Assembly (NCBI GenBank): GCA_029781035.1
Contig: JAKOXK010000070.1
Location: 62,001 to 126,000, forward strand
Direction: 5' to 3'
From: Armatimonadota bacterium
Lineage (GTDB): Bacteria; Armatimonadota; Fimbriimonadia; Fimbriimonadales; Fimbriimonadaceae
Length of the DNA: 64,000 bases
Position numbers and translations under genes: made by a program. Under the pieces are notes generated by a model that was not told the origin of the DNA, did not search any database, and was given only the letters and a program-made list of their open reading frames with translations. Positions 16,370 through 18,424 of the stretch are shown one piece after another. Numbering within the stretch: the first letter of the stretch is position 1; the number at the start of each line of letters is the position of its first letter.

Positions 16370-17083
16370 TTGAATCAACGAGCTTTGGCTCTCTGGGGCG
16401 TCGGTGCCTTGGCACCGGTGTCCTTTGCGTGGTCGTTCTATGACCACAGTGTCGGTTCCGGCTTCAGCTACAGCGCAGCTAACGGAGCCTGCGACGGCGG
16501 AATCTACGACTACGGTGCCAACTTCGGCCTTCAGGAAGGCCAACTCGTGACGGCCGTCGCTGGCGGCACGATGATCCCCTACGTGCGGGCCGACTTTCTC
16601 CAGTTCAGCGACTTCGACGACGAAGTATGGATCGACGTGTATGATGCGGCCGGTCACAGTCTTATCGGCTCGACCGGGGCAGTCCCTGCGACCAAGACTT
16701 ACTTCACTGACAGCGTCTTCGGGCTCATGGGCGTGTCTTACACGGCCCGAGCCATGATCGGTGGGTTGCAGGCTGGGAACTCGTACCTGGTCTGCATGCA
16801 AGTTGTCGGTCCATCCTGGGCGTTCATTTGCAGAGACGTGAACGGGCTTGACGAGTCGTTTGCCCGCGACTACTCCCACTACGGCTATCCAGGTGGATAT
16901 GGCTGCAATTCCTGGGAGTCGTTTGCCGGGTTGGGATTTGGTGCAGGGCAGACCTGTATGGCGATCTTAACTCCCGAGCCATGCGAGTTGATGGCGCTGG
17001 GCGCGGGCGCGTTGGCCACAGCCTGGGCACGCAGGAGGGCCCAGCGATCCCGTAAGACCCAGAGCCCAGGAGGTGGCCGGTGA
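16370..17083 (+). CDS. Secreted PEP-CTERM protein (tandem family, copy 1)
   Basis: A 237-residue exported protein starting at TTG with a strong GGAGG site. It has a signal peptide (residues 1-20) and a domain shared with the next two genes: YDHSVGSGFSYSAANG near the N-terminus, DYGANFGLQEGQLVTA, VWIDVYDAAG, TYFTDSVFGLMGVSY, MQVVGPSWAFICRDV and DYSHYGYPGGYG. The C-terminus is a PEP-CTERM sorting signal: PEPCELM, a hydrophobic stretch (ALGAGALATAWA) and a basic end RRRAQR, predicting processing by an exosortase. The domain is not recognised; its motifs suggest a beta-sandwich. It overlaps the next gene by 4 bp. Confidence 0.85.
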   Translation: MNQRALALWGVGALAPVSFAWSFYDHSVGSGFSYSAANGACDGGIYDYGANFGLQEGQLVTAVAGGTMIPYVRADFLQFSDFDDEVWIDVYDAAGHSLIGSTGAVPATKTYFTDSVFGLMGVSYTARAMIGGLQAGNSYLVCMQVVGPSWAFICRDVNGLDESFARDYSHYGYPGGYGCNSWESFAGLGFGAGQTCMAILTPEPCELMALGAGALATAWARRRAQRSRKTQSPGGGR

Positions 17084-17685
17084 AGGCACGGACAGCTTCC
17101 GTCTTGGCGATGGCCCTACTTACGAGTCCGGTTCGCACGCAAGTCTGGTTCTACGACCACAGCCTGAATTCAGGTTATCGGTACAACGCAGGCAACGGCG
17201 ACGCCGACGGTGGGAGCACCGACTTTGGCTCCAACAGGGGACTGCAGGAGGGCCAGGTCATCACAGCCCTTGGACCTTTGATCGATACGGTCGAAGCCAG
17301 CTACCTCCAGTACAGCGACGGCAACTCTCAGGTTTGGATCGAGCTCTTTGACAGCTCGGGAAGCACTCTGATCGCTTCATCAGGCCTGACCACCGCGTAC
17401 AAGACGTACTTCACAGACGACGTTTTCGGGATGCGCGGGGTCACCTACCACGCCAACGTCGTCCTCGGTGGCCTCCATGCAGGCTCCGACTACATGATCG
17501 CGATGCAAGTCGTCGGTCCCTCCTGGGCATACATTGCCAGAGATGTCAACGGAGTGGAGGGTTCGTACGGTAGGGACTATTCACACTTTGGCTATTCCGG
17601 TGGCTATGGGACAACGGAGTGGACGTCGATGGGCGACCTCGGTTTTGGCGAGGGCATGACCATTCTGAGGGTCGGCAGCACGTGA
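17080..17685 (+). CDS. Secreted protein, tandem family copy 2, cut before a PEP-CTERM-like tail
   Basis: A 201-residue paralogue of copy 1 (YDHSLNSGYRYNAGNGD, NRGLQEGQVITA, VWIELFDSSG, TYFTDDVFGMRGVTY, MQVVGPSWAYIARDV). It starts at GTG within the stop of copy 1 and has a signal-like N-terminus (SVLAMALLTSPVRT). It ends at TGA 17683-17685, but the same frame continues for 32 codons with a degenerate PEP-CTERM-like tail (see 17686-17784). As written the protein would be secreted without an anchor. The function of the family is unknown. Confidence 0.85.
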   Translation: MKARTASVLAMALLTSPVRTQVWFYDHSLNSGYRYNAGNGDADGGSTDFGSNRGLQEGQVITALGPLIDTVEASYLQYSDGNSQVWIELFDSSGSTLIASSGLTTAYKTYFTDDVFGMRGVTYHANVVLGGLHAGSDYMIAMQVVGPSWAYIARDVNGVEGSYGRDYSHFGYSGGYGTTEWTSMGDLGFGEGMTILRVGST

Positions 17686-17784
17686 CCAGAGACTGGGGGG
17701 CCGGTCGGCCTCGGCTTGTGCCTGGCAGCGCTCGCCCGATTTCGGGTCACGCGGGCCCAGCGAAGCGGCCTGCAAGGGGACTAG
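17686..17784 (+). pseudogene. In-frame PEP-CTERM-like tail behind a TGA stop
   Basis: Directly after the TGA of copy 2, the same frame reads PETGG, then a hydrophobic VGLGLCLAALA, then a basic RFRVTRAQRSG, ending at TAG 17782-17784, only 7 nt before copy 3. Copy 1 ends in the same order (PEPCELM, hydrophobic helix, RRRAQRS). The tail is either a decayed C-terminus lost by a nonsense change or a readthrough extension. The unusual 106-nt gap between copies 2 and 3 disappears if the tail is counted. Confidence 0.55.
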
Positions 17785-17791
17785 GCCGAAG

Positions 17792-18424
17792 ATGAGGACG
17801 AAACTATTGGCCCTGATCCCGATCGTGTCGCTCTCGGCATCGGTGCACGGCGGCGTACTTTATGACCACACGGTCGAAGCTGGTTACAGCTACGACCAGG
17901 GGATCGGGTCCTGCGACGGAGGCATGGCCGACTATGGGGCGAACTACGGCCTACAGGTGGGGCAACTTGTGACGGCCACGTCTGAGAACCGATACATCAC
18001 GTCGGTCAGCGCCAATTTCCTGCAGTACACGGACTACGACACCCAAGTCTGGATCGATGTCTACGACAAGACGGGCAAAACACTGATCGCAACGTCGGGC
18101 CTCATCTCGGCATTCAAGAACCGGTTCACAGACCACGTTTTCGGGACTCTTGGAGTCACTTACTACGCGACCGTGATGTTCGGTCCCTTGACGCCAGGCA
18201 CGTCCTATCTGATTTCGATGCAGGTGGTGGGCCCTTCGTGGGCTTACATCTGCCGGGACGTCACGAGCTTCCCTGTCCCATCGCACTGTCAAGCCGATAC
18301 CAGCTATTTCCGGGACGGTTCGCACTTTGGGTACCCGGGTAGCGGCGCATCAACAGACTGGACACAGCTGGCCCACTATGGGTACGGATACGGACTGACC
18401 TGCATGAAGGTCGCGGTCTTGTAA
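17792..18424 (+). CDS. Secreted protein, tandem family copy 3, without PEP-CTERM anchor
   Basis: A 210-residue paralogue with a signal peptide (LLALIPIVSLSASVHG) and the family motifs YDHTVEAGYSYDQG, DYGANYGLQVGQLVTA, VWIDVYDKTG, RFTDHVFGTLGVTYY, MQVVGPSWAYICRDV, GSHFGYPG. It carries a roughly 15-residue insertion with extra Cys (SFPVPSHCQADTS) not found in the other copies. The protein ends at TAA 18422-18424 with no sorting signal, and none lies in frame downstream. It probably belongs to the same operon as copies 1 and 2. Confidence 0.85.
   Translation: MRTKLLALIPIVSLSASVHGGVLYDHTVEAGYSYDQGIGSCDGGMADYGANYGLQVGQLVTATSENRYITSVSANFLQYTDYDTQVWIDVYDKTGKTLIATSGLISAFKNRFTDHVFGTLGVTYYATVMFGPLTPGTSYLISMQVVGPSWAYICRDVTSFPVPSHCQADTSYFRDGSHFGYPGSGASTDWTQLAHYGYGYGLTCMKVAVL

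Follow-up and report, generated by a model that had tools for sequence, protein, structure and literature searches.

A PEP-CTERM-like tail beyond an in-frame TGA in a tandem exoprotein family of an Armatimonadota genome: probable loss of a sorting tail

The second of three tandem genes in a 64,000-nucleotide stretch of an Armatimonadota draft genome (contig JAKOXK010000070.1 of assembly GCA_029781035.1; this whole stretch is named "the window") ends at a TGA codon, beyond which the same reading frame continues into what, judged by its sequence, is a genuine homologue of PEP-CTERM sorting tails. We consider, with a probability of roughly four in five, that this gene (copy 2) represents the recent loss of a sorting tail in a tandem family under relaxed constraint, leaving a freely secreted copy. 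The product of copy 2 would thus most likely be a freely exported protein after tail loss, and the generation of two forms from this one gene is unlikely.

The tandem cluster and the frame beyond the TGA

The three related genes are located in tandem on the + strand, and their N termini appear signal-like by eye (Table 1). Copy 1, the C-terminus of which reads PEPCELMALGAGALATAWARRRAQRSRKTQSPGGGR, ends in a TGA (17081-17083) that overlaps the GTG of copy 2. As a previous sequence-only reading of this DNA had correctly reported, copy 2 stops at the TGA at 17683-17685 and its frame remains open beyond this codon up to a stop ending at 17784, the intervening sequence specifying the 32 residues PETGGPVGLGLCLAALARFRVTRAQRSGLQGD followed by a TAG (17782-17784). 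The spacing described in that reading was also confirmed, the ATG of copy 3 (17792) being located 7 nt past the TAG of the tail, as opposed to a gap of 106 nt (17686-17791) between the TGA and copy 3. Up to the TGA, the copy 2 product ends at GST, and neither a PEP motif nor a hydrophobic helix nor a basic cluster is present at its C terminus. Searches against Pfam and NCBIfam returned no match for either the body or the tail of copy 2. In a structure model of copy 2 (of low confidence, pLDDT 50), the last strand, encompassing residues 195-200, precedes the stop.

In a 151-nt fold, GGTCACG, located close to the tail's end (about 17746-17752), is a pairing partner for CGTGACC, which spans the TGA (17681-17687). 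The TAA of copy 3 (in the 18403-18424 region) sits about where the PEP motif would begin, and is located 11 nt ahead of the stop codon at which a convergent transporter gene ends.

Table 1 Features of the tandem cluster, with positions given with respect to the window
Feature	Position	Strand	Basis
Copy 1, exported protein whose PEP-CTERM tail (PEPCELMALGAGALATAWARRRAQRS...) is divergent	16370..17083	+	ORF; TIGR02595 tail score
Copy 2 body, 201 aa, GTG start at 17080	17080..17685	+	ORF; 59% identity to paralogue G000:C12:105240-105836
PEP-CTERM-like tail in the frame of copy 2, beyond the TGA, 32 codons + TAG	17686..17784	+	Profile alignment across the TGA; codon-biased divergence
SECIS-like hairpin GGGGCC-GGTC-GGCCTC, loop 17 nt past the copy 2 TGA	17697..17712	+	Conforms to the published bSECIS model; -9.5 kcal/mol
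Copy 3, tailless, 210 aa ending in KVAVL	17792..18424	+	ORF; profile match stops at position 202 of 224

Homology and divergence of the tail

A family profile, made from five relatives and in which the row of copy 2 ends at its stop, aligns to copy 2 across the TGA, covering positions 2-222 of 224 with one TGA inside the alignment (349 bits). Among the matches listed for 113 genomes of the order and for 291 genomes of the phylum, copy 2 is the sole one with an internal stop. The nearest paralogue, present on contig C12 of the same genome (G000), ends in NAVPEPVSMIALGIGLAALARKRRK, while a relative in a congener (G001) ends in NAVPEPVSMIALGAGLVALARKRRK; at the position of the tail both of these carry NAVPEPVSMIALG(I/A)GL(A/V)ALARKRRK. 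When the tails of copy 2 and C12 were compared without gaps, 11 of 22 residues were found to be identical, and third codon positions differed in 15 of 22 cases, as against 14 of 44 for the first two positions of the codon (Fisher p 0.008). This bias indicates that, over the greater part of its history, the tail DNA was translated, and a tail arising by chance was ruled out on the basis of the profile alignment through the stop together with this codon pattern. Taken in isolation, the copy 2 tail obtained 6.7 bits on a profile of 31 tails of the lineage (the G001 tail and 30 of the 38 listed tail rows, the other eight being omitted), scores on this profile being approximate as at least one row is one residue short and in one row the first residue A was changed to V. 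At least this score was reached by three of 1522 other window segments (four of 1523 when the tail itself is included), and copy 1's own tail scored 4.2 bits, below that of copy 2.

The tail had been described as degenerate, with PET in place of PEP and an Arg within the helix. The former stands; the latter does not, since both intact relatives have an Arg at the same site (LAALA-R), from which it follows that the basic cluster begins with this residue, which is not a helix-breaking substitution. The true departures of the copy 2 tail are PET for PEP, and GGPVG where the relatives have VSMIA.

At 61% identity to C12 despite changes at 38 of 62 four-fold sites, the body of copy 2 is conserved, which indicates that the gene is alive up to the stop. 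Visible signs of decay are scarce in the tail, which contains no frameshift and no second stop before the TAG, which retains its hydrophobic run and basic end, and whose divergence is not above that of the body (p 0.37). With respect to the C12 tail, the open tail of copy 1 carries 18 changes at 44 first and second positions, as compared to the 14 in copy 2, these comparisons being gap-free so that a possible one-residue shift in copy 1 would inflate the divergence of copy 1; the C12-G001 pair is much tighter, at 3 of 44. Given that the divergence of the copy 2 tail does not exceed that of the copy 1 tail, and that the C12-G001 pair is tighter, constraint on the tail seems to have been relaxed throughout the cluster, and the stop would be young. 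The sequence-only reading had named two findings that would speak against it, namely orthologues devoid of tail homology, and an ancient TGA followed by an unconstrained tail. As to the former, the paralogue and the congener both carry the tail; the latter was rejected over the whole divergence, the 14 changes at first and second positions being too few when set against the four-fold sites of the body (binomial P 7e-5).

The PEP-CTERM setting and a proposed model for tail loss

The host genome encodes an exosortase (PF09721, 162.6 bits, G000:C30) and about 30 intact PEP-CTERM tails. Of the 39 tail matches listed for this genome, 33 exceed the TIGR02595 cut-off, two of them only with their neighbours in frame, and none of the 39 has an internal stop; copy 1 is among those above the cut-off of 16, its tail obtaining 15.6 bits alone and 16.2 bits with neighbours in frame. 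Across four genomes of the genus 143 TIGR02595 matches were retrieved, four of which are located in frames shorter than 75 aa, and all four were read, in addition to one weaker match with an internal TGA. In G002, one PEP tail is located beyond an in-frame TAG and TGA (C260:365-436, L134), the frame upstream of it having no Pfam match, and a gene resembling trypsin (Pfam Trypsin_2, E 0.0067, below cut-off) carries a frameshift and a TAA ahead of its PEP tail (C253:2194-2265, L135). In G001, an orphan PEP-CTERM tail (PF07589, 22.8 bits; C10:97187-97258, L132) is present in frame past the stop of a Crp-like regulator, the Crp-type identity of which was judged by eye, and the tail match on contig C8 represents a 68-aa fragment. 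The match with a TGA on G003:C4 was read as chance. The stop-separated tails indicate that stops ahead of surviving tails are ordinary in this genus.

The family itself is rare, 5 of the 291 genomes of the phylum containing its 13 members, and its tail is in frame in 11 members, behind the TGA in copy 2 and absent in copy 3. Within these 291 genomes neither an orthologue of copy 2 nor a second case of a stop at the tail site among the other family members was found, and a scan of named genomes returned no relatives of the family. Two additional candidates were discarded: a weak tail-like match in a 42-aa frame at G000:C85, downstream of a gene that uses a different frame, was read as a chance overlap, and a 59-aa frame at G088:C203 was read as a contig edge. 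In the phylogenetic tree copies 1-3 cluster together with C12 as their sister, the fork of the three being supported by values of 95/94 and the order among them not being settled.

According to the model that we favor, duplication of an exosortase-sorted PEP-CTERM protein would have generated the tandem family, and constraint on the tail would then have relaxed within the cluster, as may be reflected by the divergent tail of copy 1, the stop just ahead of the tail in copy 2 and the absence of a tail in copy 3. Release factor RF2, which is present in the host genome, would terminate translation of copy 2 at the TGA, so as to yield an exported, beta-rich domain without membrane helix or PEP motif, which would consequently be set free and not retained for the exosortase. 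We infer that the stop is young, that the protein is exported and that the free form is released. Of the two interpretations put forward in the sequence-only reading, that of a decayed or lost tail gained from the tails that remain intact in the closest paralogue and in the congener, from the tailless copy 3 and from the other stop-separated tails of the genus, while that of a programmed readthrough yielding two forms gained no positive evidence.

Decoding of the TGA, rival explanations and known systems

An altered genetic code was ruled out, as RF2 is present and TGA is the terminator of 35 of the 54 window ORFs that were kept. Judged from its gene content, the host genome nevertheless decodes TGA as selenocysteine (Sec), since it carries a tRNA-Sec with a TCA anticodon, SelB and a SelD with an in-frame TGA (loci G000:C64:3179-4108, L089; G000:C10:22361-24181, L086; G000:C54:7010-7100, L080). 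Among the matches listed, much of the host's order also decodes TGA as Sec, SelD itself being a selenoprotein with two hairpins past its TGA and a GT core in the loop of the second; the best named relative of the host SelD is that of Armatimonadetes isolate SZAS-3 (71% identity). Recoding of TGA elsewhere in the host, together with the SECIS-like hairpin, keeps a recoding route for copy 2 in consideration, by which SelB would bind the GGTC hairpin just downstream of the TGA as a Sec codon and the full sorted protein would be made. The hairpin, with its 6 bp, GGTC loop, spacing of 17 nt and -9.5 kcal/mol, fits the published bacterial SECIS model (PMC13188914), the hairpin being sought 16-37 nt past the TGA. 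The same test, confined to unbroken stems, was passed by 31 of 31 SelD TGAs of the order (a set that leaves out L092 and L107, without a Sec TGA, and the fragment L090), the apical loops of which contain a GT core. However, it is also passed by chance, namely by 118 of 2022 TGA triplets in the window under loose and 55 under strict settings (2.7%), and, when a TGA was placed before PEP tails, by 11 of 83 (loose) and 4 of 83 (strict, 4.8%), one of the 83 being as stable. Among the 35 TGA-ending window genes a single one, presumably copy 2, passes the strict test. Furthermore, relatives have Val or Thr, not Cys, ahead of the PEP motif and no redox motif is present, only copy 2 of the 13 members has a TGA at this site, the hairpin is not conserved, the stretch folds no better than shuffled sequences, and in a longer context the hairpin is replaced by another pairing. 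Incorporation of Sec at this TGA is thus very improbable.

If a near-cognate tRNA were to read through the TGA, whether through leakiness or in a programmed manner, a minor anchored and a major free form would be produced, with the tail under selection. TGA followed by C is a weak stop in E. coli, the tail is open to a stop 7 nt ahead of copy 3 and is no more diverged than the open tail of copy 1, and yet this TGA-C context is ordinary here (15 of 35 TGA-ending window genes), no second genome among the 291 of the phylum has the arrangement, the PEP motif is altered to PET and the other stop-separated tails of the genus resemble decay, so that we regard readthrough as quite improbable; among the papers searched, none pairs PEP-CTERM with readthrough. 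That the TGA would be decoded at a set fraction, either through SelB and the GGTC hairpin or through leakiness, such that one gene would yield a free and an exosortase-sorted exoprotein and recoding would act as a sorting switch, is very doubtful. The TGA may also be an error in the assembly of a draft genome consisting of 98 contigs, where one base would be enough to close a gene that is in reality open; the absence of internal stops from the 39 listed host tails argues against this, and the change in the PEP motif and the tailless copy 3 are beyond what a single error explains, which makes it very unlikely.

If the tail of copy 2 was indeed lost, a tandem exoprotein family that sheds its sorting tail would provide sorted and free copies from separate genes. 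A TGA positioned just ahead of a tail in a Sec-decoding genome requires a chance control, as the DNA of PEP tails itself yields SECIS-like hairpins. Were recoding to be true, it would constitute a new use of TGA, governing protein sorting and not redox chemistry.

When compared to known systems, the cluster resembles the PEP-CTERM/exosortase (EpsH) system (TIGR02595, PF07589, PF09721) in being an exported family in which PEP, a hydrophobic run and a cluster of basic residues make up the C terminus, with an exosortase in the same genome, whereas the tail of copy 2 is located behind a stop and reads PET, and the annotated product is tailless. Bacterial selenoproteins with a bSECIS, such as SelD of the order, share with copy 2 a TGA, a GGTC-loop hairpin at 17 nt and a Sec-decoding host, but copy 2 is devoid of a Cys/Sec homologue, a redox site or conservation, and a hairpin this good occurs by chance in about 3-5% of cases. 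The decayed PEP-CTERM genes G002:C260 and G002:C253 are like copy 2 in that a PEP tail survives downstream of in-frame stops, although each of them carries more than one lesion, whereas copy 2 carries a single stop, its body being intact otherwise.
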